DNA of 64,000 nt from Porogramme epimiltina. Lineage: Eukaryota; Basidiomycota; Agaricomycetes; Polyporales; Polyporaceae. The translations under genes were made by a program, and so were the position numbers. This document shows positions 18,212 through 54,285 of this stretch, one piece after another (position 1 is the first letter of the stretch; each line of letters begins with the position of its first letter). The notes below the pieces were generated by a model, which ran no database searches, had not been told where the DNA came from, and saw only the letters and a list, made by a program, of their open reading frames with translations. The stretch lies in assembly GCA_900155495.1 (NCBI GenBank), contig FTLJ01000572.1, positions 55,202-119,201 of the forward strand, written 5' to 3'.

Positions 18212-19087
18212 TTAGAGGGAGAGCCCGCCCAAGACAAGCCACGTCCCGAACGCAACAACGCCCACTGTGCGTAGCGAGAGGCCCGTCCGTGCGCGAGCAG
18301 CAGATCCCGTAGAGGCGGCGCCCGTAGCGGAGGTGGTAATGCTAGCCGTAGACGTCGCGTCGTTTGCGGATTGACTAGAAGAGGTCGATGATGGCGCGGA
18401 GGGTGCCGTGGGTGTACTAGTCGAAGAAGAGATGGTCACGACCGTGGTCTCTGCTTTGGTGGTGAATATTGCGCTCAACGACGTGGAAACATCGGTCGTC
18501 GTCTGGTTTCCCGGCGCGGACGAACTCAATGCTTGGGAGCCGGAGGTAGCCGCACTTGATGTCACGTTCACAGTGATCGTCCCCGTGAGTTCAACCTTCC
18601 CGACCTTGAAGTAGGTGAGGGTGAAAGTCGATCCGATGTTGGTGATCTCGAGCGTATGCGTCCCGCCTGAGAGGCCGCTCGCGCTGAATAGCGGGAATTG
18701 ATACTCCGTCGGGGACGTTTGGAGTTCGAGGGTCGAGTTCGTCGTCGGCGCGCCCCCGTCAACTGCGTACGAGACGCCGCCGGTGTCCTTGTCGTGGTGT
18801 TCCTGTGACCCGAACACGGCAACGGAGGTGCCTGTGAACATCGACTTGTGTCAGTGCGAACAAAGGATGGCTTGTGGAGCACACCCACCAGTGAAGGAGA
18901 GGTGAGCAGTCGCGCCCTTTACATGCGTCTCCGCGACGGGAACATACACGCCCGCGGGGTTCATGATGAGAACGGTGCCCAAGGACCACACATGCGCGCC
19001 AGCAGGTCCATACTGGATCGCGGTTGAGTTGTACGGGATGCAAAGCGTAGTTGCGTCGGAGACGCAATCCGGTAGGAGTGCTACCAT
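18212..19087 (-). CDS. Surface protein with galactose-binding-like ectodomain, probably GPI-anchored
   Basis: Exons (reverse) 19087-18889 and 18831-18212 give 272 codons plus stop. The start MVALLPDCVSDATTLC was preferred over an upstream in-frame ATG because it matches the paralogue at 16571-17506. Exon 1 ends in LSFTG with a phase-1 intron. Exon 2 starts VAVFGSQ and has VSYAVDGG, GTHTLEITN and LTYFKV, then a long Ser/Thr stalk. Unlike its neighbours it has no basic cluster or tail: it ends with a hydrophobic stretch (VGVVAFGTWLVLGGLSL) after Ser/Gly/Ala-rich sequence, which suggests a GPI-attachment signal. It may therefore be a surface-only version of the receptor ectodomain. The absence of an obvious N-terminal signal peptide is hard to reconcile with a GPI anchor and leaves the start uncertain. 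Confidence 0.7.
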
Positions 19088-21660
19088 GATGGCGATGGAT
19101 GTGAGCGACGAGGGTGGGGAGAGACGCTGTTGCTTTGATTTATACTTAGGGTCCATGAAGTTTGGAATTGCCGTGCGATGCCGACACAGCCATACTGGCA
19201 CCACTAGGCACGGCGGAATAAGAGAAAGGCATCTTCGAGCTCCCGCCTCAACATAATTTACCGAATTGACAGTCTTCGTGATGGTTCAGTCACGTGATGA
19301 CAATTTGATGTGTACCTGGACGGTCTGCGGACGCCGTTGAGAGCGAAGTGAGCGATAGAGGGGTGCAAAGTTGTGTAATAAAACGAATAAGTATACTCTA
19401 GAGTACAGGAGGGGCCTCGAATGCAGTCACATTGACTTCGTGCTCCTCTCGAACCGGCCCAATTTGATTTCTGAGAACCGGATGTAGACTCGGAGACGGT
19501 TGGTTCGACACGGATACATGTACGACACTGCTTCCGTCCCATCTGAGCTAGAGGGTTCCTGGGGGAGGCACATTGTTGTCGGAAGATGTTGAAGAAGTCT
19601 TGCCACTAAGTAGGCCCTCGCGGACCGAGCGAGGGCGCCGAGGTAGGGTTCAGGTTGGCGGAAGAATGAAGGTGTTTGTCGAGGGATACGCTTGTTGTGT
19701 ATAGGTGGCCTGGAAAGCAGGAAGTGGCGCAGCAGAGAACCCACATGACCGCACTCGCAGTTCCGGCCTCTCCATGACGGCCTCCGAGGGGGACTTCGTA
19801 TAACCCGACTAGAAGAACTCCTCTCCGCCTAGGGAAAACGCGTCCATCGGATGGTGGGATCTTCGCTTGAGCGTCGTCGAGTGAGAAGGGTCCCACGGGT
19901 AGCCACGTTGTTCTAAGATATTGCGCCTGTCCTTACGTCCAAGACTCTTGAAGGCAGTTAGATGGTGGGTCGATACCTTGCGGTGACAGGCACATACCCG
20001 ATTCGCGCTCGGCTGGCCAAGGATTTCGCCACTACGATAGGTGAGTTAGCTACTTTATATTGAAAGGGCAAAGACACGCAGAGTTAACGAACAGAGACTA
20101 TCCCGTGTAAATGGTGTTCATCCTCGGCGATTCCGGACGTGTAGAACGACAGCCTGAGAAGACGAAACGACGCAAACACACCATGAGTTTTGATCAGCCC
20201 TTCGTTCTACTTCATGATTTCGTCGTTAAAGGCGGGTTTGAGCATCATAGAACGTCCAAACAAGCACAGATCTTCTGAGGCGAAGTGGGCACAGGAAGTA
20301 GTGGTGAGGACGGGGTAGAGCGAATAATTGGGGAAGTCGGAGGCCGGGCGGGTAGGCGTGGGCGCTAGGAAAATCTTAGGTAATCGCGGCGATGACGTCA
20401 TTATATCCGAGCTGGCTCCTCGGACTCGACCGTCGAAATGTTCCACCTACGCAACAAATAGTTAATCCGAGATAGAGTACACAGTTTCTAAGGAGAACTA
20501 GGGGAAAGGGATGGCCTACACAGATTCAGAATCCACTGCCCGACCCCCTCCGATCAAGCTCAAGCGCCTGCTCTTCTATAACACGCTCCCATCCATCAGT
20601 TGCCTTTCGGTGTTCCTGTTCACTCGAGGAACATAGGGGCAGAATCGTCGACTCGGAGACAACTTGTGTTCCAAGATATGCCTCAATAATATACCCCGTC
20701 TCATACGTTCTCTAGCTTAATACCTGGGCCGTCCGTCGCACTGGCATATGGCATTATACTCTGCCATGACCTCGCGGCAGATCTGCATATGTCGGGAGGA
20801 TCCACCAGGGCACCAACGTTCAGGACAAGGGAGTCTTTTCACGACTGAAACACGTCGCTTGTCTGGGGGTCGGGAGTAGGGCTTGGGACGTGCTCGCCGA
20901 CGGGCGAGCCTGAGCAGAGCCCGGCCCGGGTTCCGCGGAGTCCTCTATATTTGTGGAAGGTAATATATGGGCGTGTCGCGGTGTATAAGTCACAAGGGAG
21001 TCGTTTTTACCCATCAAGGCCGAAATGCTTCGCAGGTACACTCCACGCAGTGGACCTCGCGACGGTTGGAACACCGCCCCTCGAACGACGCTGGCGTAAG
21101 AGATCTTTTTATCTACTGTCGCGGGTAACTTTTGTGCCTTCTATATCTACTTATGCACTGCTCCGGACTCACACAGGGCGAGCTACTGAACCTCAACCTC
21201 GGGGCGGACTGGACGTCCTACGTTTCTCCTGTTGGGACGAGTCACGTGATTGAACTATTCTGACGTTGACCGACGGCGAGTGTTCGAGAGGTCATCAAAT
21301 CTAAACAAGGACATGTCAGAGAGTGATGTTAGGGAAGGTATAGCGGCGCTTACGAAATGGCGTCAATAGCAGAGTACCTCCTCCTTAAGTCCACCTCTGG
21401 TGCAGAAAGCGACCACCGGTTTCCCGTCACATGGAAGACGGTTGCGTCAGTGGCGGAATTCGCCAAGGATCCAGAGCATCCCGACAGGTGGTCAAGATAG
21501 GGGCCAGTCGATATCTGTCAGACTCAGAACGGGTCCAGAGCAACTTCGGGATATGAAAAGCCGAGAGGGGAAGGAAGGCGAGACCTGATGATAGAACAGA
21601 CAGGGACAGTACAAGAGACGGTACGGGAGCAGTCGCCGCTGACTGAAACCCTTCTAACGC
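19088..21660. other. Intergenic, no gene seen
   Basis: About 2.6 kb with only short frames that show no domain or credible splice structure. No transposon ends or RNA genes were recognised. Confidence 0.45.
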
Positions 21661-23006
21661 TCATTCTTCTGTGACGTCCATAACGGAAGCATACGGCGGA
21701 GGCAGCGCAGCATCGTTCGGGCGCGTCGGCCCCGCATACTCATACGGCACTGCCTGCGCCCCGTCGGAGCCTGGGCGGCCGCCCGCTAAGCGCACGCCCC
21801 CATCCACGGAGCAGCCGGATGTACCTGACGGCGGGCGGGAGAGCGCCGTGCCGGAAGGAGCACCGGGGTCGAACTCGCCCTCCAGCGCGAGGTTGCCGAA
21901 GGAGGAGCGGGGGCGCTTCTCCATAGAGCCCGGGCGGTTGGAAGAGCGGCGGTACATGTGCGAGGGCGCGGCCGTGGCCATGTGCGACCAGCAAGACACG
22001 GTCGAGAACGCCCGCTTGAGCATGCACTTGATCATCGTCGGCGCACGCTTGGGGGCCCGCGGCGGGGGAGAAGGCCGGGTGCGCCGTGTGGACTCGAGTT
22101 CTTCTGTGCGTGTGCGGGGTCAGAGAGGGATAGAATACTCAGAAGTTGGGAAGGGGGCTTACCATCGAAAGCCTGAGCTTGGAGACGCTGGCTTCGACGC
22201 CGCAGCAGGAGGATGGCGATGATGCCGATCATAATGATAAATGTCGCGACGGCGATCCCCGCGCAAGCTCCCGTACTGAGCCCATTGCTGGAACCAGTGC
22301 CATCCGAGGCGGGAGCTGCCGCGGTTTGGGACTGGGTGACAACAGGGTTCGGGGTGGCATCGTTTGTCCAGGTAGCGCTTGTGAGGAGGGACTGAGATGA
22401 GGAACTCGTTAATGAGGCGGGGACTTCCTGCGTGGATGTGCCGGACTCTGATAGCCCGGATGTGGGTGACGCTTCGTCCGTTGAGTCGCTTGATGCGGTA
22501 AGGGATGATATCTGGAAAGCGGATTCGTCGTTTGGAGCGAGTTGCGTGGAGGGTGCCGATACCGAAGAAGTGGAACTGGAGGCGACTGAGGGGTTGCTGG
22601 TAGGGTGCAACGTGGATGACGCAGATGTGGAATGGGTCTCCGAGATGGTGCTTCCCCCGACGTGTGAATTGAGGAGGCAGCTTGTATCCGACCCAGACTC
22701 TACGGTGAAGGGCGACGACGAAGCCGAAGTGTCGTTCCCGTCAATGACCGTTATCGTCAATTGGGTGCCGCCAGGCCAAGTCATCGTCCGAAGGACGTTC
22801 GTGGAGTTGGTCTTAGTAAAAACCGTTCCGTGGCCGTCGTCGATAACAACATCGTAGGGAGGCTCTCCGGAAAACCATGTGATGTTGACGACCCCGCATT
22901 GTACGGCATTAGTGGGAGTGGCTACCGACAACGTGGCGATGGTTTGGGGGAGAGTCAGGAGGAGCAAAAGACAGAGGATGGCGAGACTAAAAGGAGTGTC
23001 GGTCAT
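21661..23006 (-). CDS. Kre9/Knh1-like ectodomain receptor with tail A
   Basis: Exons (reverse) 23006-22163 and 22103-21661 give 428 codons plus stop. A strong signal peptide (LAILCLLLLLTLPQTIATLS) leads into a Kre9/Knh1-like domain (VNITWFSGEPPYDVVI), then a long Ser/Thr stalk and one membrane segment (GIAVATFIIMIGIIAILLL) followed by RRRSQRLQ. The second exon is the cytoplasmic tail. It carries the tail A motifs of this cluster, SVDGGVRLAGGRPG and near the end LPPPYASV. The ectodomain is thus unrelated to the galactose-binding-like members, yet the intracellular part is shared, which suggests that the tail is a module joined to several sensors. The junction intron is phase 1, as in the other cluster genes. 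Ligand unknown. Confidence 0.8.
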
Positions 23007-23656: not shown

Positions 23657-25258
23657 TTAAGAATAAGGAACTGAAAGGTACGGAGGAGGCATCGTCGAAT
23701 CAATACTTTGAGAAACGCTCTGACAATCCTCCACAGTTCTCTCCTCTCCAATGCGGCCTCCAGCCAACCTTACTCCTCCATCGATGGCATATCTCGTCTC
23801 TGCCACCGTGAAGCTAGGAGAGGATATGACTGCATCATCCACTTCTCCGTCTCTGGGGAGCGATTCTTCAGAGAGCTCCGGCGCGGCTTGCTCCTGTCCG
23901 GCAATGGTGGCTGTTTCTAGAGGGGGGTGACATTCCCAGCCTACGAGTACGTCTTGACCCTTTTCTGTAATTTCCGGGGTCCCTTCAAGTGGAGCTCCCG
24001 TAGCGCTGGAGCGATCTGTAATCAGCGCATCGATTGTATCGGCTGTCGCGGGTGTTGGAGAGTTTGCGGCGTCGTGGCCGCTTCGGGGTGACTGCAGCAC
24101 CGCAAGTTCTTCTACATGCGGTTCTTCATGAGCTGTTGCACGGACTGCTCGAATGAGCCGCGAACCACGAAAGAAACTGCGCCCGAGTGTAGCGCCCGGC
24201 TCCCCGAGCGTGTCAGATGATGACAAGTCGGTGGAGCTTCCTGGTTGACAGGCAGTGTTACCGATCAATTAGGCATACGACGTACTAGCAGGCTTACCGA
24301 GGAGCGTTAAGCCACGTCGTTTCCTTTCGCGCTTCCACTGCGTATAGAGCCAGAGCGCAGCAGCGCACACGACGACAACGGCAGCACCTAGCACGCAAGT
24401 TGCAACTAGTCCTGGTGGGAAGCCACCTCTGCCGACCGACGACGATGAGACTCCGCTTGTATGCCTAACGGTGCTGGTTTGGGGACTACTGGTGGTGGAG
24501 GTGGTGGGGTTCGAATCTATGGATGGGACAAGCGTGCTGGTGGTAGTAAGACTTCGCCCTGATGTTGCTGAAGTTGATTCAGGGCTAGTGTTGGAATCTG
24601 AGCTAGGTTCAGCGGTGCTGGTTGCTGTGGATGTCACGGTTTCTGGTGCATAAGCTAGTTAGAGACAAATTTCTCCCGCCATAGAAGATGCATACCCGGT
24701 GTTGATGCTGGTTTGTTGAAACCTGGTGGCGTCGGCGTCGAGATGGTAGTAAACGAAGACACTGTACTGGTAGGGATGCCCCCCTCGCTGTTTTGAACTA
24801 TGAAGTGATCAATGTTCAAGACGACTCCAACGTTTGTAATCGAGATTGTGTGAGTTCCGGACCCCAAGCCGGATGTGCTAAATAGAATGGTGGCCGTAGT
24901 TGGAATTGTAGTCGTGGGTCCGGCATTGCTGGCCAAAGGACTTGCATTATCCACAACATAAGTTGAGTTCCCAAGCTCCCTTCTCCCACCTTCCGTCTGC
25001 CAACCCCACACTTCGATGAGCGGGCCTGTAACCCGTCGTCTTAAGTACAGCAGTCAATTATATGCAATGCTAACACGTACCTACAAACTGAAGCATAGCC
25101 TTGTCAGTTTCCTGAGCAGATTGCTTTGCATGTTCCCCGACAGAAGTCCATTGCCCCGGAGGAAGATACGTAATGTTAATATTGTTGCCGAAAATGCAAG
25201 AGACAGTAGCCTCTTGAGAACACCGTGAGATCTTGCTTGCGGGGCTATCTAAAGACAT
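23657..25258 (-). CDS. Single-pass receptor, galactose-binding-like ectodomain, tail A
   Basis: Exons (reverse) 25258-25081, 25025-24696, 24654-24298 and 24240-23657 give 482 codons plus stop. An in-frame ATG at 25309 would add 17 residues. All introns are phase 1. Exon 1 has Cys pairs (SRCSQEATVSC) and ends LQFVG. Exon 2 is the beta-sandwich (LIEVWGWQ, GNSTYVVDN, SGTHTISITNVG, NIDHFIVQ). Exon 3 holds the stalk and membrane segment (LVATCVLGAAVVVVCAAALW) followed by KRERKRR. Exon 4, about 190 residues, is tail A: acidic, with YAIDGGVRLAGGRIGEE and the end STMPPPYLSVPYS. No classical signal peptide. It is the left partner of a divergent pair with 25826-27168, which has a related ectodomain but tail B. 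Confidence 0.8.
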
Positions 25259-25825: not shown

Positions 25826-27168
25826 ATGGCGTCTGGCCCAATGGCGTGCACTGACAGCGCAGTTAAAAGTTGCTTGCCAGCTGAGGACGCTACATACACC
25901 CCACCGGGACAATGGAAGTCCGTTATGGGTGCAAAATACTCACCGCAAGAGACTAACAAAGCAGAGATTCACTTCTCAGGTGCTTAAACATCCTTTTTCA
26001 AAAAAATCAAACCCCCTTAACCATATCCCTATAGGTGCTTTTATCGAAGTATGGGGCTCGCAAGTCATGGGAGGAAGAGGGACCGCGGGCAACTCAACTT
26101 ACGTCGTAGATGGAGATCTCTCGAGGAACTACGTGCTACAGACTGGGAACACAACGGAATTTGTCAAGCTGTTTTCAGCCTCAAATCTTCCTTTCGGAAC
26201 TCATACGCTGACGATAACGAATATCGGAGTCCACTTGACCATAGGATACTTCAAAGTTCAGAAAATCGGCATAGGAAGTCTTGCACCCGGGCCGGCATTG
26301 GCTAGTATTAAGGGAATCCTGAGTACACCTAGCCCCATCACTAGCCCCATCTCATTCAGCTCTAGCGAAGTCTCGCGAGGAGGTACTTCAGGCGTTAATA
26401 TTTCATGTTATTATCCTATCTAACCACGTCCCCTGAGGTAACGCCATAAAGACCATCACTTCCTTGTCGCGTAGCTCGGGACGCCTTTCTCAGGGGGTGA
26501 CTATGAGCGGAGTCTACGGCCCCCGAATAAGCCCCACCACCGCTATCGCAGGCCTACCCTTGGTAATTACCTCCGAGAGTAGTCATCAGATGGCCGCGGG
26601 TCCAACAATGACGGGGGAGCCTCCGCTTCAGGGCACTCAACACAGCCTCCCACTACAAAAAGCTCAATCGTCGACGGCCTTCATAGTGGCAGTGGTGATG
26701 GGCGTTCTTCTTTTTCTGCTCGTCACCGTGGCGGGGGCTTGGCTATGGAGACGACGAGCCAAGAGAAACGTCGGAAGAAGGACTCAGCTCCTTCTTGGTA
26801 AGTTTCCCTACAGACATGTCTTATTAGGCAAAGAGGGGCGAGGAGCCTTGTAGCTCTTGTCCCGTGGGGTAACCTTGCAGAGTTTCCTTGAGCTGACGAT
26901 AATGGTTATAGGATTGGACTCCTCGTTGCCTAAAGATATCACGGAGGATATCCGGAAAGGGAAGGAGCGGCACTCGTTCACGACGACTATCGCGCCGGCT
27001 CTTCCACAATACGGATACACATCCCATGATCTCCGATTCTTAGCGGAGAGTTGCATTGGGGAAGACGGTCGCTCTTTGGTCGTAGATGAGGATTGGGAAG
27101 GGCGGACACTGTGTCCCGGATCACTCAGGCCACTTCGAAGGGAAGATGTAATAGGTGACGGATGGTGA
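25826..27168 (+). CDS. Single-pass receptor, galactose-binding-like ectodomain, tail B
   Basis: Exon 1 25826-25979 and exon 2 26035-26382 (348 nt, the same length as in the paralogues) are clear. The exon 3 start, about 26513, is provisional; exon 3 ends at 26797 and exon 4 is 26912-27168. This model gives 347 residues. Exon 1 has CTDSAVKSCLPAEDATY and ends HFSG. Exon 2 has FIEVWGSQ, GNSTYVVDG, FGTHTLTITNIG and TIGYFKVQ. Exon 3 ends with a membrane segment (FIVAVVMGVLLFLLVTVAGAW) and RRRAKRN. Exon 4 is tail B: RHSFTTTIAPALPQYGYTSH. No signal peptide is visible, so the membrane segment probably acts as a reverse signal anchor. It is the right partner of the divergent pair with 23657-25258. Confidence 0.72.
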
Positions 27169-29129: not shown

Positions 29130-29430
29130 ATGAGAGGGAAGCGCATAGTCACTCAAACCCAAAATGAATCGAGAGACATGAGGCGGGCATCGTCTAGGTA
29201 GATTCCTCGGAGACGTTCTCTTCAACCGTTCGCCCTTCGGCTCGGTCTCCAGCCAACCTTCTCCCCCATCCTCCCCATATCGCGTCCCTCTTTCCATGAA
29301 GTATTCCTCCTCTTTATTCACAACCCTCGCCACAACTTGAGGGACCTCAACGAGAAGCCCGCCTAGACCGGGCGGGCGCGAGAAGTCGCGAATGAGGAGA
29401 CGTTCGGCGACCGCAGCCGGTGACATAGTG
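29130..29430 (-). pseudogene. Relic of a tail A exon
   Basis: Directly downstream of the 29449-30840 gene is a second, broken copy of its tail exon. It reads RDFSRPPGLGGLLVEVPQVV, then RYGEDGGEGW in place of the normal YAEDGGVRLAGG. After a frame change it reads EENVSEEST, a TAG stop and TMPASCLSIHF in place of STMPPPYLSIHF. The matching segment downstream of the 45891-47244 gene (45440-45866) shows that the tail exon was duplicated before the larger segment was copied. It has no membrane segment or start of its own. It could still be spliced to as an alternative tail, but the stop makes that unlikely. Confidence 0.65.
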
Positions 29431-29448: not shown

Positions 29449-30840
29449 CTAGAAATGGATGGAGAGGTATGGCGGTGGCATCGTCGAGAAAGATCCCTCG
29501 GTAGCGTTGTCCTCTATCTCTCCTCCTACTCCGCCTCCATCTAACCGCACTCCTCCGTCTTCAGCATGTCGTACCCCTGTTGTCACTGGACGTTCACGCT
29601 CTTTCGTGTTGGAAACGGGATTTGCAACTTGGAAGATATCGGCGATATGGACATTTGGCTCCTGAGGGAGCAAGGAGGCGCGACTCGGAATGGAGGCTGA
29701 GCGCGGGATGGAAATCCGTGTTTCCTCATTCGCTACCGTTGTGCCCTCGCAAGCGTTTCCTATTCATGTAGTCGCGGAGAGATGCCAAACGTGTCAGTGA
29801 GTACTTCGAAATATATGCATATGTACCCATTGAGTCGAAGTATTGAAGACGTACTGAATGATCTACCAGAGCCGTTTCGACAGGTGTTGCCGGCACGTTT
29901 CTTCCGTAACCAAATCGCGGTCGCAGAGATGCATAGGAACAGAACCCCCCCAGTAACAGCACCTGCCATCACTGCTGCTGAAGGCTCTTCAGTGGTCAAG
30001 GAGGTGCCACCGACGCTTGTTGTGGGCCGGGCTTCGCTTCCCGCGTTGCTCCCCAAAAGTCCCCCTTCAACGGTAGTAATCAATGAGACCGATATGTCGT
30101 GGGTTGTGGTGGTCGTTGATATCGTATTCGTTGAGACAGACGTCAAAACGACCGTCGACGTGTATCCCGGAACTTGAAACACTGAGATTGAATTCGAACT
30201 TATCCCTGAATCCGGAGTCAGCATAAAACAATTGTAGTGCATTCAATCTCCACGATTTACTTGTTCTGTCCGGGAACGCCACACTTGAAACCGGCTGCGT
30301 CACGGTAGAGTGTTGAGTAGGTATGGGATGAGTACCTGTATGGGTCGTTGTGGAAGGGAGACCCGAACTTGTTTGTACAATGAAATATTCAATGGCGAAA
30401 GCTCCCCCTTCATTCAAGACCGAAAGTGTATGTGGCTCTGTACTCAAACCGGATGTGTTAAAAAGAGGTTCCGAGTGACCCAGGGCGGCAAAGCGGGCAG
30501 TAATGTTCAAGTAGGGTTCCCCGTCAACCGACCAGGAGGCTTGCGCACTTTGTGGATTCGATAAATATCGTTGCGATCCCCAAACCTTTATGTTGGACCC
30601 TATGATCCAGTGTGGTGAGAGGGTGGAGTATGGAAAAAATAATAAGGGCGGACCTGTAAAGTTAAGGGTTGCTGGTACTTCCTGTGTGGTGGTCACCAAC
30701 ACAGCACCCCCTAAGCATTGGTACCAGCCTTCCTTTGGAACATGTATTTCAGATGCCTCGATTGCATCCACCCCCTCGTCGTGTGGGAGCACTATATGAG
30801 AGGGGACCAGCCAGTTGCTACAGTTGAAGCGCCGAGACAT
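29449..30840 (-). CDS. Single-pass receptor, NCSNW-type ectodomain, tail A
   Basis: Exons (reverse) 30840-30654, 30599-30261, 30205-29855 and 29759-29449 give 395 codons plus stop, all introns phase 1. The N-terminus (MSRRFNCSNWLVPSHIVLPH) has no signal peptide and ends exon 1 with LNFTG. Exon 2 has SNIKVWGSQ, SWSVDGEPY, EPHTLSVLNEGG and IEYFIVQ. Exon 3 has the stalk and membrane segment (VMAGAVTGGVLFLCISATAIW) followed by RKKR. Exon 4 is tail A: HAEDGGVRLDGGGVGGE and STMPPPYLSIHF. The exon 3 donor was set at 29854 because only that choice keeps the tail in frame. The ectodomain is closest to those at 45891-47244 (tail A) and 61396-62695 (tail B). Ligand unknown. Confidence 0.8.
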
Positions 30841-32062: not shown

Positions 32063-33110
32063 TCAACTTGCCAATGAGGGCATACGAAGTGGCACGAGGC
32101 GTCCAGAGCAAATCATGCGTCTGTCTCTGTCTGCGTCCACAAATATACTATCAGTATCCTCTACGTTACTCTCTTGCATGAATTTGGGGTCTTGCGGGGT
32201 GTGTCCGTACTCGGGGAGCGTCGGCGCTATGCTCGTCATGAGCGAGAAACGTCCCCTTTCCTCCTGTCCTTTGGTAGCCCCTCCATGCCGTGCGGTGGGG
32301 AGGGATGTCGCTGGTGGGAGAACGTATACTTCGAGTTCTACGCTGATGCGCGGGCTTCCTGGGGAGGGTGCACCCACTGGTCCAGTTGTCTGCGGAAAGT
32401 CATAACATAACGGAACAGCGGGGGATACATATATATCACTTGATCTCTCGCGAATTGCGTGCGGTTCTTGTACGGTCATGTCCCTTCCGTGACGAGCTGT
32501 AGGAACACTGGTGGTAGCTATGATCTGTACTGTTGAAGTAGCACTCTGACGGGTTTGAGTTGGGCGCTACACGTTTCCCCCCGCCTTAGAATAAGTTTTC
32601 GTGAGCTGTTCCATGGAGGTGGCTGTCATAGGGAATACGGCGTCGGCGTATATAATATACGTGCGATTTATATCACGATGCGAAAACAAATTGCATGCTT
32701 GCCGTAGTCAACGTAGCATTGCGATCCGAAGGAGTGATCGTTGTAAGCATGCGAGGAAAGTAGCATTAACCAGATGTTGTGTGAGGGGCCCATGGGCCCG
32801 GCCGCCGGCGTCGGCATAACCTGTTTGACGTAGCCACACGCCGCACGCCAGCATTCTGTGCCACAACATTTTGCGCGGTAGAAGAGGATGCAGCATTGTT
32901 GAAGAGCGGTGCAAAGTTGCCCACGCTGTATATATGGTTTCCCCCTAGACCTTGGCCTCCAATAATTTACCGATGCGCCCCACACCTCAATCTTATTACC
33001 TAGGTCCCAGAGGTATTACGAAGACGATGCCTCATAAGAGTGAAGAACTCTCCTGAAAACGCTATGACAGAGGCGTAGTTTCTACTCTGGTTAAACAATA
33101 AATACTACTA
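32063..33110 (-). pseudogene. Decayed receptor gene with tail B and no membrane segment
   Basis: Reading down the minus strand, 33110-33050 resembles an exon 1 end (SVIAFSGE). 33000-32700 starts like exon 2 (NKIEVWGAS) but degenerates through frame changes. From about 32550 an open frame runs through a Ser/Thr stalk fragment (SATSTVQIIATTSV) straight into tail B, with ERGRFSLMTSIAPTLPEYGH and a stop at 32063. No hydrophobic membrane segment remains between stalk and tail. It matches the tail of the 58781-60127 gene in sequence and in its place next to an NCSNW-type gene, so it is the inverted, decayed equivalent. An intracellular tail-only product from the open part is conceivable but unsupported. 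Confidence 0.65.
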
Positions 33111-33672
33111 TGAGGTCTACTGTAATTTCGGCCGTGTTAAGGATTGCTGAAGGGGGATGCTTGTTGACGATTCGTCTTCTAAGCATTGAAGCTTCAACGC
33201 ACAAACATAGAGTAGACTACTATGGGGTGTGCATTCTCCGTGACGGAGAGCCGACTGACAATAGTGCCACTCCCCACCGCTTGGATACATGGGAATATTT
33301 CGTGTGTAGTCTTTGGGCATGTGGCCAGGGATATGGGGCTCATCTGAGACAGAATATCTTGTCAATCGCGTGGTCCTTATCGAGGTGCGAAAAAGAGAAG
33401 TACAACTTCTCAAACGTCTGATACATATCCATGCCGTACCGGTCTCATGAATCCTTAATCTTCCTGACGAAGTGCATCATACAAATCCGAGGGCATGAAG
33501 TCTAGTCTTCCAGGATATCTAGAGCCTCCACACGTTGTTTACGAGTACCTTGATGATTTTCTCTGTCTGAATAACTTCGCACACATTGTGACCATTTCTT
33601 TGATTCAAGTGCACTGTGTATACTCATATCCGTAAAATCGTTAGCTGACAAGCGCAAAAACACTGGGACTAT
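33111..33672. other. Intergenic, no gene seen
   Basis: Only overlapping short frames on both strands, without domain or paralogue support. Confidence 0.4.
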
Positions 33673-35250
33673 TTACGGGAAGGGTATCGAAAGATAGGGC
33701 GGGGGCATCGTCGAGATAGACACTTCGGAAACAATATCAGAACCTTCTAACACCTCTTCACCAAGCCGGCCTCCAGCCAACCGAACTCCCCCGTCTGCAG
33801 CGTATCGCATCCTCCCATCTCGCAGAGGTAAAGGTGGACCGCCTATCCCATGCGCATTATCTTCGAGAGCTTCTGATGCTTCTTCTTGATCTTTTTCTCC
33901 ACAATTTGCGCAATAGTGAGGTCCGCTTTCGATGTTGGCAATACCCGCCACGTGATTGTGGTTTGAAGAACGGTGGTATGCCTCCAACGGGGAGACATAG
34001 ACTCCGGAAATTGAGCCAGGCTCGTTGGGTGCAAACATAGGGGTGGGCGAAGGAGAAACTGTATCTGCATGTTGTCGAAATCGTGAGTTTGACTCGGTAT
34101 CTCCCTCCTTTTCATTCTCCGACGTTTCTAGCACACCAAAGTCCGACCCTGGCGAGATTGTAGGCATCGCGACCAGGGCTCCGGTGTATGTTGTGGGGTA
34201 TGCTATGTATGTGCTTTTAGCAATAATCTTGCACACATAAATATAGATTTACTATTTTGGGGGAATGAACCTACACCCTCTTCGTTCTGTTTCTTGCATC
34301 GTAAGCGTTTTCTATAAGTCCACACCCCTGTGACGATAATAAGGAGGAAAAGAGCAGAGGCCGTAGCCGTCGCCGTAATGAGGGGTGTTGAGTGACCACT
34401 CTCATGAGAATCGGATCCAGCCGTAGTGCCATATGTCGAGGTGTTCGGGGACGTGGTGACAGTACTGCTAGATGATGCTATGTTTGCTAGCCCAGGGCCG
34501 GTGGAGACATCGGTGGGCGCTACCATTATAGATGTCAATGTGACTACCGTTCCGTTTTGAGTAGGATAGACAGTAGAGATTCTAATAGATGCGCTTTGTA
34601 TCCCAAGAGAAGGTGTGGTAAATTGTGAAATGCCTTGAAAATCACATGAACGCATGCAACGAAATTAGATTGAAGGCACAAACCTGCCAGGGGTAGGTTA
34701 TTAGATGTTGAAGGAGTGGAAGTCGCCTGACTGGTAGTGATCGTGTGAGAAACTGTGCTACTAGGGGTATTCTCGGTGGTAGGAGTAGGCGTCACAGTCG
34801 CCTGGACCTCGAAATAACTGAGTGTTAACCTAACTCCTCCGTTCCTCACGGTCAAGGTGTGCGATCCTGGGGAGAGGTCTGCTTCGTCAAAAAGCATAGA
34901 CGCCGTGCTTGATCCTACTGTATTGAGAGCTATATTTTTGAAGAGGGATTCACCATCCACGATGTATGAAGAGTTTCCGTCTGTTCCTTGACCTCCCATC
35001 ATTTGCCAACCCCACACCTCAATCTTGTCACCTAATTCACGGAGAGGTTATATCGACGATCCATTATGAAACCAAGGAGCCCACCTGAAAAAGACAAGAT
35101 TGCTATGCTAGCCTCCTGTTGGTTGTATAATGCCCCGTCCCCCCAGTGCTCCCAGATCCCAGGAGGTTCAAGTTGAACGTTTGAGCTTTGAGCTGGGATA
35201 CACGACTCGACTTGGCTATCTAAGCATTGGGGTGCCGAGAGAGAGGCCAT
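33673..35250 (-). CDS. Receptor pair 1, member with tail A
   Basis: Exons (reverse) 35250-35085, 35031-34684, 34633-34277 and 34202-33673 give 466 codons plus stop, all introns phase 1. The start MASLSAPQC was chosen over an upstream in-frame ATG because the divergent partner has the same N-terminus. Exon 1 has Cys residues (QCLDSQVESCIPAQSSNV) and ends LSFSG. Exon 2 has DKIEVWGWQMMGGQGTDGNS, then SPGSHTLTVRNGGVRLTLSY and a Thr-rich stalk. Exon 3 has the stalk and membrane segment (ASALFLLIIVTGVW) followed by YRKRLRCKK. Exon 4, about 176 residues, is tail A: YAADGGVRLAGGRLGEE and STMPPPYLSIPFP. Exons 1-3 closely match the gene at 36201-37543, while exon 4 is unrelated to it. No signal peptide. 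Confidence 0.87.
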
Positions 35251-36200
35251 GAAGTCACAGAAGGGAGCTATCGGAATGCGCGGAGAGTATGGAGAACCGT
35301 GGAGACCGGCGTGTCCCACTACAGAAGTGGCGCGAGTCTGAGGTTCTTTGAACAAGATACCCTTAGAATCGTGGCAAAATGAGATGGCAACGTCATCTTG
35401 ATGGAGTGCTCATCGAAATCTCAATGATGCTCTCGCTCAAAAGACGGCGGTTCAAAGAACCTCTCGAGAATGAGGGCGTCAGTCCCATGTGAATAATGGG
35501 TATCTCAAAGGGCAACATTCCTCATGAGTCTCTATCTCGAGCTTACATCTGTAGCTACATGGGGATGAGGTTGGAGTACATGAATACTTCAAGAGTGGTC
35601 TTTCATGCTGGCGGTTTAAAATACAATGTTCAATTCACACGTCATATCATTGCGCCGTATCTTCCATCTGTCGAGGAGGGATATCACTTGAATAGGGTTT
35701 GACAGGAATACCGAGAACGGAAGCTGCAGGGCCATAAGCCGCATTAGTCAACTTGAACAGCGTGGGACGCCGCAGCACCCGAAAATAGTCACCCAACTTG
35801 CGAATGTGTTATGAACTATACCAGCATCAAGAAGGTATACTTAGGATACATACCCCCAACGTACATACTCCAAGAACTCCAATGGCGTCTTATGTTACAC
35901 TTGTCTATATCCCTCATTGTCCTGACTTGTTGGTACTCTCCATCAAGTGTATATTGAGGATCAATCTGCCATTTCTCACATCATCACTGCCCTTGATATA
36001 CATAGCTATCGAAGTCCCGGCGTGTCCGGGTTGCGGAAGTATGGGATCTATCATGATGAGCATACAAACGCTGGAATGGAAGATAATCATCTCCATGGGA
36101 AGCATTAAACGGGTTATCTCATGTTCCTCTCTGCTTACCAGTGGTGACACGGCCCGCGGAAATCTCTTTGTATTCTACGCGCACTCCGATACCTGTCTTC
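35251..36200. promoter_or_regulatory. Divergent spacer of receptor pair 1 with mirrored promoters
   Basis: The two ATGs face away from each other about 950 bases apart. The 80 bases before each start are related by inversion: both have a block with gcgcaytccgata 15-30 bases before the ATG, preceded by a similar gtgg-gacac stretch. So the promoter was duplicated together with the gene, and the two genes may respond to the same regulators. 35880-36010 also resembles 48820-48930 upstream of the 49120 gene. Confidence 0.5.
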
Positions 36201-37543
36201 ATGGCCGCTCTCTCACCCCCTCAATGCTCAGACGATCAATTTGGGTCGTGTATCCCAGCCCAAAGCCCAAACGTTCAACTTGAACCTCCTGACACATGGG
36301 AACACTGGGGCGGGGCATTATTCGACCAACAAGAGAGTGACAAGGCAATCTTGTCTTTTTCAGGTGGGCTCCTTGGTTTCATATTGAGTTGTCGATCTTA
36401 CCTCTCCGTGAATTAGGTGACAAGATTGAGGTGTGGGGCTGGCAAATGATGGGAGGTCAAGGAACAGAGGGAAACTCTTCATGCATCGTGGATGGTGAAC
36501 CCCTCCCTAACAACACAGCTCTCAACACAAAAGGATCAAGCACGGCCTCCATGCTTTTCAACAAAGCAGGCCTCTCCCCAGGATCCCACACCTTGACCGT
36601 GAGGAACGGAGGAGTTAGATTGACACTTAGTTATTTCATGGTGCAGGCGACTGTGACGCCTGCTCCAACTACAGAGAAAACCCATAGCAGCACGGCTCCC
36701 CAAACAATCGCTACCAGTCAGACGACTTCCACTCCTTCAGCATCTAATAACCCACCCCTGACAGGTTTGTGCCTTCATCTAATTTAGTTACACGCGTTCA
36801 TGTGATTTTTCAAGGTATTTCACAGTCTACCGCACCTTCCCTTGGGGTAGAAAGCGCATCCATCAAGACCTCCACTGTCTATACTACTCAAAACGGAACG
36901 GTAGTCACGTTGATATCTTCTATAATAGTAGTGCCCACCGAAGTCTCCACCGGCCCTGGGCTAGCAAACATAGCATCATCTACTGTCACCACGTCCCCGA
37001 ACGCCTCAACATATGGCACTACGGCTGGATCCGATTCTCATGAGAGTGGTCACTCAACACCCCTCATTGCGGCGACGGCTACGGCCTCTGCTCTTTTCCT
37101 CCTTATCATCATCGCGGGAGTGTGGCTCTACAAGAAGCGCCTTCGACGGAAGGATACAGTGACTGTATTCCACCTAGGTACGTTCTGACGATTTTCTCAT
37201 GTAGAATCGGGATACCGCATACGCACTCCATAGAGTTGGTCCACATTTCTGGACATCGAAGCTGATGTAGGGATTTGCACCAACAGAGCCGACAAAGCGC
37301 ACTCCGCAACAGGAAGACATGGTGGAACGGAGCGAGAAGGGACGGTTCTCGCCTACCCCCAGCATCGCCCCGACACTTCCGGAATACGGCTATACCTCGC
37401 ATGACATCGAACTCATGCGGGGCAGCGACATGGAGAGACCTGAAGACCATCCGGCAGTGGAAGATTTGAACGAGAGTCCGCCGTACGTGGGGCCGCTCGT
37501 GCCGCTGCGCATGGAAAACATGGCGGACGCTGAAAGCGATTGA
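36201..37543 (+). CDS. Receptor pair 1, member with tail B
   Basis: Exons 36201-36363, 36417-36764, 36815-37177 and 37287-37543 give 376 codons plus stop, all introns phase 1. Exon 2 is 348 nt, exactly as in the partner at 33673-35250, and by eye about four fifths of its residues are identical, including IEVWGWQMMGGQGT and SPGSHTLTVRNGGVRLTLSY. The membrane segment (ASALFLLIIIAGVW) is followed by YKKRLRRKD. Exon 4, about 85 residues, is tail B: RFSPTPSIAPTLPEYGYTSH, then ESPPYVGPLVPLRM, so it has both an LPxY and a PPY site. There is no trace of tail A. No signal peptide; the topology is inferred from basic residues after the membrane segment. Confidence 0.87.
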
Positions 37544-45439: not shown

Positions 45440-45866
45440 ATCGAATCGAGAGACATGAGGCGGGCACTACCACTCATCAGTCGTCTACTCTCCAGCTCAC
45501 GCCCCTATCTCCGGCTCACCTAATTCTCCTATCTTCCGCATATCCCGTCCCTCCTTCCATAAAACGGATCACCTGTTTAGTCGCAACGCGCGTCACATAT
45601 TGAGGAACATCAACGAGATGACCGCCTGGACCGGGCAGGTGCAAGAAATGACGAATATAGGAGTGCTTGGCGGTATCATTTGTACCAACACTCGGTTTCG
45701 TTACAAACATAATCTTAGGATCGAGGGGAGAACTTAAAATATTGGTGAGTGCTACTATGTTTTCTATGGGCACTACGTGCAAATGCTGAAGATACGCACC
45801 AAAGGAGCGATGAATGTCGCTTTGTCGGCCTCCCTGGCAGGTATATTTTCTAGTGGCACGGAACAA
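45440..45866 (-). pseudogene. Relic of a tail A exon
   Basis: This is the equivalent of the relic at 29130-29430, downstream of the sister gene. It reads RHFLHLPGPGGHLVDVPQYV, then MEGGTGYAEDRRIR, matching the normal VETGVRYAEDGGVRLAGG up to the point of decay, and further on MPASCLSIRF in place of MPPPYLSIHF. It has no start or membrane segment. Confidence 0.6.
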
Positions 45867-45890: not shown

Positions 45891-47244
45891 CTAGTAATGA
45901 ATGGAGGCGTATGGCGGGGGCATCGTCGAGATAGATTCTTCGGTGACGTCGTCCTCTATGTCTTCACCTACTCTTCCTCCAGCTAACCGCACCCCTCCAT
46001 CTTCAGCATATCGTACCCCTGTTTCCACTGAGCATCCTTCCTCTTTGGTGCCAATGGTAGTTAGGGTTTGGGAAACATCTGCGATATGACCACTTGAATC
46101 TGGAGGTAGCAAAGAGCTACGAATGGAGGGATGCTGGATGGAATCGTGTGCTTCCGCATCCACCGCTGTTGCGCCATTGCAAGCGGATCCTACGCATACA
46201 ATAGCGGAGAGATGCACAATGTGTTGGTGAGTACTGCGAAACCTGTGTACCCATTGAGTCGAAGTATTGTATACATACTAGAAGATTCACGACAGTCGTT
46301 CCAACAGGTATCGCTCGCACGTTTCTTCCGTAACCGAACTGCGGTCGCAGATATACATAGGAACAGCACTGCACCAAGAATAGTGCCTGCTATAACTGCT
46401 GCGGAGGGCCCTCCCCTTGTCGATGATGAACCACCCGCATCCCCTGTCTGCCGGGGATCGCCTCCCGCTTTGCTTCCCGAAGGCTCTTGCGTGGTCATCA
46501 AGGAGACCGACACGTCGTAGGCTGTGTTGGTTATTGATACCGTATTCTTCGACTCAGACGTCAAAACGACTGTCGACGTGTATCCCGATCGTGTGAGCAC
46601 TAAACTCGAATCCGGATTTATTCCTGAACCTAGGGGTCAGCATGTAGCAAGGATAGCGTACGTGTGTAGCTTACCAGTCGACCCCGAGGGCGTAACAAAT
46701 GAAAGCGACGGCGCAGTGTGGTCTGTGGGTATGGGCTGAGCCCCTGTAGGGGTCGTTGTGGAAGGGAGACTCGAGGTTTGTACAAGAAAATAGTCAATGA
46801 CTAAAGCTTCCTCTCCATTCAAGATCGAAAGAGTATGTGGCGCTGTACTCAAACCGGATGTATTGAAGAGAAGTTGTGAACTATCCGGGAAGGTCTCGGA
46901 GTGGGCGGTAATGTTGGAGTAGGGTGCTCCATCGACTGAATACGAGGTTTGTCCACTTGGACGACCCTGTAAGGTTAGTTGGGATCCCCAAACTTGTATG
47001 TTGGACCCTATCTTCCAGTGTGGTGAGAGTGTGGGATGCAGAAACGTAATATGGGCTGACCTGTAAAGCTCAGGTTTGCTGGTACAACGTGTTTGTCGAC
47101 CGCCAAAACAGTACCATCTGAGCATAGGCTCCAGCGTTGTTGTGGAATCTGTAGCTTAGACGCCTCGATCACGTCCACCCCTTCGTCTTGTGGCAGCGCT
47201 GCATGATAAGTGACCTGCCGGTCGCTGCAAGCTGAGCTCGACAT
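45891..47244 (-). CDS. Single-pass receptor, NCSNW-type ectodomain, tail A (second copy)
   Basis: Exons (reverse) 47244-47061, 47007-46675, 46629-46279 and 46189-45891 give 388 codons plus stop, all phase 1. Exon 3 is 351 nt, as in the 29449-30840 gene. Exon 1 (MSSSACSDRQVTYHAALPQD) ends LSFTG. Exon 2 has SNIQVWGSQ, TSYSVDGAPY, APHTLSILNGEEA and IDYFLVQ. Exon 3 has GYTSTVVLTSES and the membrane segment (VIAGTILGAVLFLCISATAV) followed by RLRKKR. Exon 4 is tail A: YAEDGGVRLAGGRVGED and STMPPPYASIHY. It is a segmental-duplication copy of the 29449 gene. Its exons 1-3 are also very close to the 61396-62695 gene, which carries tail B instead. No signal peptide. Confidence 0.83.
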
Positions 47245-47445: not shown

Positions 47446-49119
47446 ACTAATTCCGGGGGTGGCTGTAGGTAAATATACGACTGCCGCAGAAGGCAGGAAG
47501 AAATGGAAGATCAGAATCTTCACGATAGGTCGTAGCGCTGATGAAATAAGGCGGTGGAACCGAGAAGAAGCGACAGGTTGCGTTGCACTGAACCTTTTTA
47601 GTATCGAAGCCGCATTGTATCCAGAAACTGGAAGTCTTTCCGGATGGCGTACACGCCACCCCACAATGTGTCGAGATCGGAGAGATGAGCACCGAGAGGC
47701 CACGATGTGATGCGGGTGGTGACACGCCATGAGATCCGAAAGAGGGCTGGAGCAGGGCAGGCCAGTCGAGCGTGACATTCACCAGCGGCAGCGATGAGAT
47801 CCGGCCGGGGCGGCGTCGCACATATATGAGTGAGACGAGCTTGGGAAGAGTGAGGAAAGGGACTCCATGATGCACCCGAGCTTTTGGTCGACGGGAAGCG
47901 CCCTAATATCAATAAGTACGCTTTGTGCCCCTGCCGAATTGACCCCGGTACGAATTTCGGAGAGGGGGCTAGGCTAGGTGTAGTACAGCCACAGCGCGCA
48001 CGTGAGCGCGCGGCTGGGAGATGTGCGGTAGGCGCGCGGTGGCCCGGGGTGGCACTCACCATTCTTGTTGGCAACGTGAGGACTGGATAGCAGGAATGCA
48101 AGACGATGATTTGATTTCTAAGCATTAGGAGAATGAGGAGGACGCCACGGAACGTGTAATTGTAGCTGTATGCGAGTGCAGGCGTTAGAACGCTGGGCGA
48201 CAGCATAGAGCGGAGTGCGCCACCAAAAAGCGGGGAAAACATGAGGATCTCTTACAAGAGGACACATTCTGCTATTATAGCTGAGACGATATTGTAAGGC
48301 GTACCTACATACGACCTGGTTGGGGCTGCTGAAAAAGCGTCTGTCTGTTTTGATACTGGAAGGAATCCCCTAGAAAAGTATACTCTATACGCATCTCTAT
48401 AATGGTCTCATCTGGATTCCCTTCACAACCACAGGATGTTGAAGTACATGAGTTTCATTACAAGATCCCTTCAATCCGGGGCCTAATAAGAGCGCTAACC
48501 GTCGCTCAACACACGGCCACACCGGGTGTATCCAAGCGCAACATGCTTTACATCTTCCATCTGTCTGAATGGATTATCACTTAAATAAGGTTTGACAGAG
48601 ATATACAATGCAGCCTCAATGTAGCTATAGTCTCGACGTGATACTTGTGAGTTGAGACTTTGTGGGATGCCCTATCATCTCAACCTAGTGGCAAACCCAC
48701 ACATCAACTCACATCGATGTGTGTCCACCCTCATCGGCTGCGCGGAGGCACAGGCCACGGTTCGTCTATTGTACTTTGGGCACCCTCTCGCAGCATGCAC
48801 CAGGAAATCCTATTGCTGCCTACGTATGATTCGCCTTTACAGTTCTATATCCCGATCTGTGATTCCTGTCAGTCTGCCATATTTTCACATCATCACATCC
48901 TTGATATAGCTTATACCAGAATGCTGGTACGTTTGATGCGCTGAAGCACTAGATCGAATCTGATGGATATATCAGACGTTTGCAGGGAAGTTGACGACCA
49001 CGAAGGGAGGTGCCATACATGGTTTCTCCTCATCCTCTCAGTCTCTGCTAGCGGCAGCACGGATCGTGCAACTCCTTGCTTATTCTCCACACACTGGGAT
49101 ACAATTCTTCAGAGACACC
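47446..49119. other. Intergenic, partly duplicated sequence
   Basis: 47490-47780 resembles 31070-31350. 48550-48600 resembles 35660-35710 and 48820-48930 resembles 35900-36010, so the boundary between two segmental duplications lies near 48 kb. The 214-residue minus-strand frame at 47598-48242 is not supported by any paralogue. Confidence 0.45.
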
Positions 49120-50453
49120 ATGACCTCTCCCTCATTCTCTCAATGCTTGGGAGACGAAGCATCGTCCTGTGTCTCTGCTGGGCAGGCCTTGCGTCATCCG
49201 ACAACACAGTGGATGCAGGAGGGGGATGCATGGTACAGCCCGCAAGAGGATAACACTGCTATTTTGACTTTTTCAGGTGAGTCCTCCTTTTTTAAATGAT
49301 ATCATCGGTGTAAAACCTTCGTGAATCAGGTCACAAGATTGAGGTGTGGGGTTGGCAAAAGTTTGGGGGCCGAGGGACAGACGGAAACTCCACATACATC
49401 GTCGACGGAGAAACCCTCTTCAAAAACACAGGTCTCAGTAAAATGAACTCAAGCACGGCCTCAATGCTTTTCAGCAAGACAGACCTCTCCTACAGCCCAC
49501 ACACTGTGACAGTGCGGAACGCAGGGGTCCATTTGACACTTGGTTATTTCAAAGTACAGGCACCTGCGGCGTCTACTCAAACTCCCGTGAATACCCTGAG
49601 CAGCACATCGACCCAAGCGATGACTACCAGTGAGGCGACTACCACTTCTTCAACCTCCTATACTCCATCCCAGATAGGTTTATATCCTCATACATCTTTG
49701 CTACATAAACTCATGTATATCTTCAAGGGAACCCACAGTCCACTTCACCTTCCCTTGGCACAGAAAGCATATCAGTTGAGGTTTCCACCGTGTATATCAG
49801 TAAAGATGGAACGGCAATGACGTCGGTATATACCTCGGCTATGGTAGTTAACATTTCTACCCCTCCCGAGACAACAATGGCTGGATCACCATCACCCAGT
49901 AGCACAATAGCCCATGACACTCCGCTGTCTAGCAATACCAGCGGATCTAGTTCCCATGAAAGCGGTCATTCAACGCCTCTTATCGCAGCGACTGCCACTG
50001 TCACTGCACTTTTCCTTCTTTTCATTGTCGCTGGAGTGTGGCTTTACAAGAAGCACTTTCGACGGAAAGACATTGTGACTGTATTCCACTTGGGTACGTT
50101 CTTAGACTACGACTCCCTCACAGAGATCTGCAATACTCCTTCACTACATGGGGGTGGTCCGTTATACCGGGAGATCGAGGCTGATGTATGGATTTTCAAC
50201 GACAGAGCCTACAAAGCGCACTGCACAACAGGAGGAATGGAACGAGAAAAGACAGTTCTCGCCTACCGCCAGCATCACCCCGACACTCCCTGAATATGAG
50301 TATACCTCGCACGACGTCCAACTCATGCGAGGGAGCAACATGGACAGACCTGATGGTCCACCCGCCGTGGAGTATTGGAATGAGAGCCCGCCGTACGCGG
50401 GACCCCTCGTACCGCTGCGCATGGCAGACGTGGCAGACGCTGAAATCAGTTGA
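49120..50453 (+). CDS. Single-pass receptor, galactose-binding-like ectodomain, tail B
   Basis: Exons 49120-49276, 49330-49677, 49728-50093 and 50206-50453 give 372 codons plus stop, all phase 1, with exon 2 again 348 nt. Exon 1 (MTSPSFSQCLGDEASSCVSA) ends LTFSG. Exon 2 has HKIEVWGWQKFGGRGTDGNS, STYIVDG, SPHTVTVRNAGV and LGYFKVQ. Exon 3 has the membrane segment (ALFLLFIVAGVWL) followed by YKKHFRRKD. Exon 4 is tail B: RQFSPTASITPTLPEYEYTS and ESPPYAGPLVPLRM. It is the duplicate of the 36201-37543 gene, and the copied segment continues for about 2 kb downstream. The gene upstream on the other strand (45891-47244) has a different ectodomain type, so the head-to-head pair here is mismatched. Confidence 0.85.
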
Positions 50454-52833: not shown

Positions 52834-54285
52834 CTACGGAAAAGAAATCGAAAGGTAAGGTGGAGGCATGGTATAAGCGGATCCCTCCACAGTCTCAGCA
52901 ATGTCTGCATCTCTCTCCTCTCCCAGTCTACCTCCTTCCAGTCTCACTCCTCCATCTATAGCGTACCGAATGTCTCTGAGTCTCGAAACCAAGGGTTCTT
53001 CGGGTCTCTTACAGCCTCGCTCTCCTACCGGGCTATGTTCTGCGCGTTCCACTGAGGTCAAGGTTTGACCCCCATACTGTGCGGTATTGCTCTGAGCCTC
53101 CGTCGATGGCTCGGCTGCTCGGCTGTATGCTATTTCAGTAAGCCGACCGTGTTTCTCTGCTTGTGAGGGTACGAGCTCCGAGGGCAAATCATGGACGGGG
53201 TGCGGTAGTCCGGTCGATGACTCGGCCCCATTTCCGGCCAGATATTCACCCGTTGGTCCTAAATGGGGTGTGCGCTCGAGGTTAGTGTAAATCTCATCAT
53301 AGTACATGCTCATGGTTGTCTCACCAGATCTGGATAATACTACTCGAGTGATCCTTTGTTTCCACTTTCTACATACCCAGTATATTGTCACGATAATGGC
53401 GCAGAAGAAAATTACACCGGCCGCTACGCCAGCCGGTGGAAAATGATAGCTTGTGTGCTCAGACGCAGGGGATTTGTTCTTACTGGGAGTATATATTGGG
53501 GGAGAAATGCTTGTCATTGGATTCGGAGTGGAAGTAATTGAGGCAAGAGTGGAGGAGTTGTGTGTACTCGCATTTTGGGATGCGCTCACTGACTACTGGT
53601 AAGTACTTGTGATAAATCGTTTCAAGCATAATGGTGGCTACCTGTTGGCTCAGATTCGGACTCCGCCGTAGAAGTGAGCCCTGATGCAGTCGGTACGGTT
53701 TGAGATTGCCCACTGGGAGGGGTTGTCGATGTCGGGATAACCGATTCGGTGTCTTGAACTTTGAAGTGCGCAATATACAGATTGACTCCGCCGTTCCTAA
53801 GTGCGAGCGTATGGGACTCTGTCCCTAGCCCTGAAGCGTTGAATAGCATGCTTGGTGTGACCGGGGGATTATACTGCATAAGATCCGTATTGTTTTGATT
53901 GTAAGAGTGGTCGACAGAGTAGGACGAATTTCCTTCCGCTCGTCGACCACCCACGAATTGAGCACCCCATACTTCGATAAAGCTGCCTAATAATTCATGA
54001 GGGCCTGCTAGCGCTCTGATGAAGTTCAATCTACACACCCGAGAAGGCTAAAGTCCCCTTGTTAGTTTCTTGATAAGAGTACCAAGATCCGTCGTCTACC
54101 GCCTGCCATTGATGAGCGGGGGAGTATGTTGCTTCTGCTGCTGGGACGCAAGATGTCCCTGGCGCGGGGGTACATTCAGGAAAGTTGAAATTGCTTGCGG
54201 CAGGTAGGCGTGCATATGAATATGAGATAGGGATGTTGAATATACGGAGGGAAACAGATACGTATGGCGAGAGAATGGAGCGCAT
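52834..54285 (-). CDS. Receptor pair 2, member with tail A
   Basis: Exons (reverse) 54285-54039, 53986-53642 and 53588-52834 give 448 codons plus stop, phase-1 introns. The start is uncertain: this ATG adds about 30 residues before the part shared with its partner (NFPECTPAPGTSC). Exon 1 ends TLAFSG. Exon 2 has GSFIEVWGAQFVGGRRAEGN, SYSVDH, ESHTLALRNGGV and IAHFKVQD. Exon 3 holds stalk, membrane segment (GVAAGVIFFCAIIVTIYWVC) with RKWKQR, and tail A (YAIDGGVRLEGGRLGEE, TMPPPYLSISFP), without the usual stalk/tail intron. By eye only about 13 of some 115 exon-2 residues differ from the gene at 56137-57467, whose tail is type B. Confidence 0.83.

Follow-up and report, generated by a model that had tools for sequence, protein, structure and literature searches.

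Head-to-head gene pairs with copied ectodomains and distinct tails in Porogramme epimiltina, a candidate basidiomycete paired-receptor system

We analysed a 64,000-nucleotide window of the Porogramme epimiltina genome, positions 55,202 to 119,201 of contig FTLJ01000572.1 (here C458), which forms the end of this 119,201-bp contig and holds an array of head-to-head gene pairs whose members carry one of two classes of tail, A or B. The pair from which the analysis set out consists of MINUS (33673–35250, minus strand, tail A) and PLUS (36201–37543, plus strand, tail B). The spliced model of MINUS (466 aa) is a predicted, open four-exon frame (35250–35085, 35031–34684, 34633–34277 and 34202–33673) encoding an ectodomain, a Ser/Thr-rich stalk, a single membrane segment and a long tail with the C-terminal end STMPPPYLSIPFP. 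The spliced model of PLUS (376 aa), also a predicted, open four-exon frame (36201–36363, 36417–36764, 36815–37177 and 37287–37543), has an outer part laid out as in MINUS and a tail containing APTLPEYGYTSHD. Exon 2 measures 348 nt in both genes, and all three introns of each are in phase 1. The Ser+Thr content of the stalk is 41–43% in the two proteins (43% in MINUS), and each has one hydrophobic segment followed by a basic stretch. Because of this basic stretch, and because N-glycosylation sequons are richer in ectodomains (42 per 2508 residues, 19 ectodomains) than in tails (12 per 2556 residues, 20 tails), the sequences suggest an N-terminus-out topology.

The ectodomains of MINUS and PLUS showed 81% protein identity. 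Their DNA was 86% identical over 969 columns, from −7 nt of the ATG to +957 in the membrane segment, and no DNA match between the two genes was found beyond +957. The homogenised tract occupies 34293–35257 (minus strand), ending in the membrane segment, and its counterpart 36194–37152 (plus strand). Exons 1, 2 and 3 were identical at 134/163, 304/348 and 303/347 positions, and introns 1 and 2 at 47/53 and 43/49, on par with the exons. No BLASTP match at E < 0.05 was obtained between the tails encoded by the fourth exons. The first-pass annotation had described two genes here with matching exons 1–3, ectodomains about four fifths identical and fourth exons without similarity; the intact four-exon models, the measured identities and a profile-profile probability of 0.3% for the two tail classes bear out this description. 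Chance or a reading error was rejected (969 columns at 86%, frames intact), and alternative splicing to one tail is unlikely with MINUS and PLUS on opposite strands. The 950 bp from start codon to start codon (35251–36200) are not homogenised (66/140 positions identical in the upstream 150 nt of the two genes) and probably form a two-way promoter region.

Further pairs were sought on C458, C604 (1–24000 and 42000–48500), C196 (1–3500) and C758 (31500–37500), using spliced models from our own sequence-based aligner, which are more certain for MINUS, PLUS and j than for c, d, e, k, l and the C604 tails. Contigs C76, C426, C537, C730 and others carry family matches outside this pair search, and the whole analysis covers one genome and part of its family. 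A single isolated pair was rejected, since seven adjacent head-to-head A/B pairs were modelled on two contigs: c/d, MINUS/PLUS, i/j and k/l in the window, and 604.2/3, 604.4/5 and 604.6/7 on C604. In all seven, tail A belongs to the minus-strand gene and tail B to the plus-strand gene, with start-to-start distances of about 0.57 to 2.0 kb (c/d, 568 bp; 604.6/7, 1678 bp). Gene c (23657–25258, minus strand, tail A; tail model uncertain, with several predicted introns) is the partner of d (25826–27168, plus strand, tail B), their ectodomains being mutual best matches. Gene i (45891–47244, minus strand, tail A) faces j (49120–50453, plus strand, tail B), which is near PLUS in ectodomain, tail and 3' flank. 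A relic resembling the start of j exon 1 (48074–48148, minus strand; 69% identical over 74 nt and containing one stop) is located 972 bp before the ATG of j, at the position of a head-to-head partner, and may mark the place of a matched partner of j that has decayed. Genes k (52834–54198, minus strand, tail A) and l (56179–57467, plus strand, tail B) complete the pairs of the window; the start codon is not fixed in either. The end of C458 and the start of C604 both fall within the array, and the two may be neighbouring contigs. The start of C196 falls inside a k-like tail A gene.

The two tail classes were clearly separated. An all-versus-all BLASTP of 20 tails (E < 0.05) gave 41/45 A-A, 45/45 B-B and 1/100 A-B matches; the lone A-B match (604.1/604.5, 24 bits) involved 604.1, which lies outside the seven pairs and is the weakest member of class A, lacking the DGG motif. 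An hhalign comparison of the ten B tails with nine A tails, of which the last ~53 residues were used, gave a probability of 0.3% (E 0.22, five aligned columns), so that common descent of the two tails found no support in a comparison restricted to the C-terminal part of tail A. Tail A is marked by a C-terminal sequence of the type DGGVRLAGG...T[LM]PPPY, and tail B by one of the type RFSxTTSxxPTLPxYGYTSxD that lies further inside. PPxY stands 8–10 residues from the C-terminus in 10/10 A tails and 0/10 B tails, whereas LPxY, placed further inside than the PPxY of A tails, occurs in 10/10 B tails and 0/10 A tails. Downstream of LPxY, Thr is invariant in the ten B tails and Gly, Tyr and Asp are nearly so, and DGG is present in the nine A tails aligned (604.1 is not in this alignment). 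PPXY and LPXY are described as PY motifs bound by Rsp5 WW domains (PMC2810449), and part of the function may be common to tail A and tail B.

The classes also differ in distribution. The DGG motif pattern of tail A has 32 matches in the genome (control 1), spread over 11 contigs, nine of them without a detected tail B, so tail A is in general use within the family. Ten occurrences of tail B were found, each on C458 or C604: nine genes and relic f (32096–33189, minus strand), a decayed tail B gene. The weakest of the ten had an E of 0.013 in the tail-B search, and the next match 0.39; a second tail-B query recovered 6/10 B tails plus one chance-level match. The pattern TLPxYGYT gave seven matches, every one in a B gene (control 0), and did not pick up d, j or f. 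Even between pairs that share only ~30–40% ectodomain identity, tail B is conserved; its ratio of non-synonymous to synonymous divergence (dN/dS) was 0.29 (PLUS/j), and as judged from sequence it is under constraint. Two observations concern tail A beyond the pairs: gene p (21661–23006, minus strand) is membrane-protein-like and has a DGGVRLAGG...LPPPY tail, with no ectodomain match detected, and C76 (10000–54673) is a second family cluster, whose ten tail-A motifs are split six to four between the strands and in which tail B was not found.

Ectodomain identities between partners were 50% (c/d), 81% (MINUS/PLUS), 28% (i/j), 90% (k/l), 85% (604.2/3), 86% (604.4/5) and 34% (604.6/7). Thus, four of the seven pairs reached 81–90%, against a mean of 36% and a maximum of 58% for A and B ectodomains that are not partners. 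The matrix covers the modelled genes except a, b, p, 758.2 and the relics f and m; the C196 gene enters only the tree and one tail comparison, and b and 758.2 only the comparison of an eighth pair on C758. The real partner assignment was the best of 5040 A-B assignments (1/24 in the window, 1/6 in C604), and with the C758 pair added, 3/40320 assignments reached the real score. Nine other adjacent family neighbours, chosen by us, were 27–48% identical (Mann-Whitney, one-sided p 0.027). In a maximum-likelihood tree of 20 ectodomains (UFBoot/SH-aLRT), four partner clades were recovered: 604.4/5 (100/98), k/l (99/90), 604.2/3 (93/81) and MINUS/PLUS (90/91), with 95/80 passed by 604.4/5 and k/l only. 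Genes e, i and o were left without resolution in this tree. Gene i (tail A) shares 70% ectodomain identity with gene o (61396–62695, plus strand, tail B), which lies 14 kb away and has an i-type ectodomain.

In the four matched pairs, the introns were 87–96% identical, matching as well as the exons. The copied tracts span −7 to +957, +1 to +685, −41 to +680 and −64 to +461, and that of i/o −478 to +931; all five stop short of the tail exon. Introns have diverged as much as exons, and the tracts end abruptly, both of which point to gene conversion or recombination and not to convergent selection. The outer part has been copied between partners in four of the seven pairs, and the tails have been kept distinct. 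Conversion apparently ran in both directions. Because j links a PLUS-type ectodomain with tail B, the MINUS ectodomain would have been received from the B side; because the C196 A gene goes with k, 758.1 of C758 with 604.2, and e (29449–30840, minus strand, tail A, i/o-type ectodomain, no head-to-head partner found) with i, the genes l, 604.3 and o would have received theirs from the A side. Such two-way copying with untouched tails is consistent with selection that keeps the outer parts matched and the two tails distinct. A comparison of synonymous and non-synonymous divergence, which the first-pass annotation had named as a check, was run on exons 1–2 of the four matched pairs and gave dN/dS values of 0.38, 0.44, 0.30 and 0.70, the last including sequence past the tract; these and the tail ratios are simple Nei-Gojobori values with no significance test.

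The ectodomain may be a jelly-roll domain of the CE2_N-like or galactose-binding-like, carbohydrate-binding kind. A PDB profile search gave E values of only 0.083 and 0.088, and Foldseek returned 213 matches at E ≤ 10 with none at E ≤ 0.001; on re-examination, the carbohydrate-binding module rows were interspersed with Cry1Aa, DipZ and a phage baseplate protein at similar Z. A protein search with PLUS alone scored 0/4564 candidates, whereas a five-sequence profile gave 12 matches, nine of them named as fungi; ten of the 12 sequences were inspected. PPxY lies within 15 residues of the C-terminus in 5/12 of these, no tail among the 12 contains LPxYG (in one protein it occurs close to the N-terminus), and a search with the tail-B region gave no candidate. 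Among the closest known systems are membrane proteins of Agaricomycetes that cross the membrane once, for example Mycena rebaudengoi C8J57DRAFT_1114044 (P0001, PF17996), which have a related ectodomain, a Ser/Thr-rich stalk, one membrane segment and a PPxY near the C-terminus; P0001 differs in what seem, by eye, to be two outer domains.

Several other features of the array and its surroundings were recorded. Fragment m (57711–58110, minus strand) is an ectodomain piece with no tail detected, head-to-head with gene n (58781–60141, plus strand, tail B; spliced model) and 77% identical to it over 389 nt. Degenerate second tail-A exons lie just downstream of the tails of e (29161–29328, minus strand) and i (45504–45680, minus strand), as if tails had been replaced. 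Intron 1 of 604.2 on C604 has a GC donor, compared with GT in its partner 604.3. No tblastn match to MINUS or PLUS at E ≤ 0.05 was found in C458 1–55,600. Upstream of the array, 11184–15011 (plus strand) holds a 1275-aa open frame whose C-terminus carries a CHAT (caspase-like) domain (E 7.8e-33); Pfam on ten other open reading frames of the window gave the CHAT domain plus two sub-threshold matches on one frame. Within the reach of these contigs, which are fragments, a mating-type locus found no support: 17/17 STE3 matches are on C92, and the three Homeobox_KN matches are on C139, C206 and C397.

Among known systems, the array is closest in anatomy and evolution to animal paired receptors. It has matched, linked ectodomains in 4/7 pairs, two unrelated kinds of tail, and gene conversion; neither the immunoreceptor tyrosine-based inhibitory nor the activation motif (ITIM or ITAM) was found in its tails, nor a charged residue for adaptor pairing in the membrane segments of MINUS and PLUS, the two inspected. 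It is not a member of that group, because its domain is another one and ITIM and ITAM are absent. The nearest parallel is given by the primate genes SIGLEC11 and SIGLEC16, which are regarded as paired receptors and lie head-to-head about 9 kb apart, with ectodomain exons kept alike through repeated gene conversion (PMC5701461). They resemble the fungal pairs in orientation, conversion-matched ectodomains and differing signalling parts, and differ in being Ig-like sialic-acid lectins with an ITIM tail versus an ITAM-bearing adaptor; the fungal genes have another domain, lie ~0.6–2 kb apart and form several pairs in arrays. In the CEACAM family, the ectodomain and often the membrane exon are shared by conversion or duplication, the cytoplasmic exons are replaced, and ITIM and ITAM-like members occur within the same groups (PMC2832619). 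The likeness is again a common outer part with a differing cytoplasmic part; CEACAM is an animal Ig family whose subcluster genes mostly share one orientation and are not head-to-head by rule. Fungal allorecognition genes (HET, NLR, gasdermin; PMC10197012) are likewise many-member recognition families, but fungal NLRs are intracellular, unlike this array of membrane proteins. In the main text examined of that review of fungal immunity, "paired" and "cell surface" have no occurrence. The earlier statement that no such fungal system is known to have been described agrees with the open-licence literature matches listed (titles and abstract starts), among which no fungal paired-receptor system was found, a weak form of evidence for absence.

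We read these results as a basidiomycete paired-receptor system, an array of head-to-head gene pairs with ectodomain copying and distinct tails, at a probability of about 0.53. The first-pass annotation had proposed a fungal paired-receptor locus; its anatomy stands, with two tail classes, seven pairs and copied ectodomains, while the shared ligand, co-expression and opposite outputs are what we infer, and "one ligand, two outputs" is the best reading. Both members would sit N-terminus out in one plasma membrane, and the region between their genes would serve the transcription of both. They would recognise a common ligand; going by the analogy of the ectodomain fold with jelly rolls that bind carbohydrates, this would probably be a glycan or a glycoprotein of the cell surface. 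Through tail A, a ubiquitin ligase of the Rsp5 type with WW domains would be recruited, leading to uptake or damping, and tail B, found only in the array, would give a specialised output. Selection for the same ligand in both members would favour ectodomain copying and reject tail copying, and the pairs would drift to different ligands while each stayed matched. A more specific proposal, speculative and rather improbable as it stands, is that each head-to-head pair is one specificity, with damping and activating tails reading the same glycan or self/non-self marker, pairs diversifying as alleles do in a recognition repertoire, and the array contributing at the surface to basidiomycete non-self recognition or defence.

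Many observations weigh against the paired-receptor reading. The i/j (28%) and 604.6/7 (34%) pairs are unmatched, and 604.6/7, unlike i/j, lacks the excuse of a decayed partner; c/d, at only 50%, shares two short blocks of DNA and is not joined in the tree. Gene o carries tail B without a head-to-head neighbour. In the eighth head-to-head pair, 758.1/758.2 on C758, 758.1 has tail A, the ectodomains are 29% alike, and 758.2 (C758:31500–37500, local 4839–6001, plus strand) has an apparent hydrophobic C-terminal stretch and no tail; this pair lowered our confidence from 0.55 to 0.53. No obvious signal peptide was seen in MINUS or PLUS (hydropathy of at most 0.0 and 0.3 in any 19-residue stretch of the N-terminal 45 residues), and the ITIM/ITAM pattern occurred in 0/20 tails. 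Tail A is less constrained, with a dN/dS of 0.70 in the sole comparison (i/e), and the definition of the tail classes and motifs drew in part on these same sequences. Both tail classes carry possible Rsp5-type PY motifs, which are common (PMC5892558), so that "opposing" signals are not established. Finally, the proximity of inverted copies by itself favours gene conversion. Separately, the ectodomains of 758.2 and window gene b (near 18060–19100, minus strand) are 71% alike, and 758.2 is possibly a glycosylphosphatidylinositol-anchored form.

The alternative that survives best, unlikely but serious, is neutral gene conversion in a birth-and-death family, in which close inverted neighbours swap 5' parts, the pairing is functionless and the tails differ by descent. 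Head-to-head copies ~0.6–2 kb apart are good substrates for such exchange, yet i and o are 70% alike at 14 kb, tracts stop before the tail in 5/5 cases, and the copying was apparently two-way. Unmatched pairs, several relics and dN/dS values up to 0.70 agree with neutrality, but one tail per class in seven adjacent pairs, and a tail B found only in the array and retained beneath such divergent ectodomains, do not. We consider it distinctly improbable that the pairs encode a heteromeric receptor, with matched ectodomains as a dimer interface and the two tails as halves of one signal; the one-A-one-B make-up of the seven pairs and their shared intergenic region would suit this, whereas tail A motifs occur on 11 contigs, nine of them without detected tail B. 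Very little weight goes to the idea that both tails feed the same Rsp5-type turnover route, the pair being mainly a dosage or timing device, for although PPPY in 10/10 A tails and LPxY in 10/10 B tails match the PY motifs described for Rsp5 WW domains (PMC2810449), other conserved positions differ (Thr/Gly/Tyr/Asp after LPxY in ten B tails versus DGG in nine A tails).

Somatic non-self recognition in basidiomycetes is described as poorly understood (PMC8229728), and the array offers a concrete, testable set of candidate surface receptors in this group. Should the pairing prove functional, paired receptors, until now considered a device of animal immunity, would have arisen again in fungi; this second origin would have used an unrelated domain and once more have copied ectodomains while preserving tails. 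Even with another function, the array would be a clean natural case of genes that accept conversion at one end and show none at the other.

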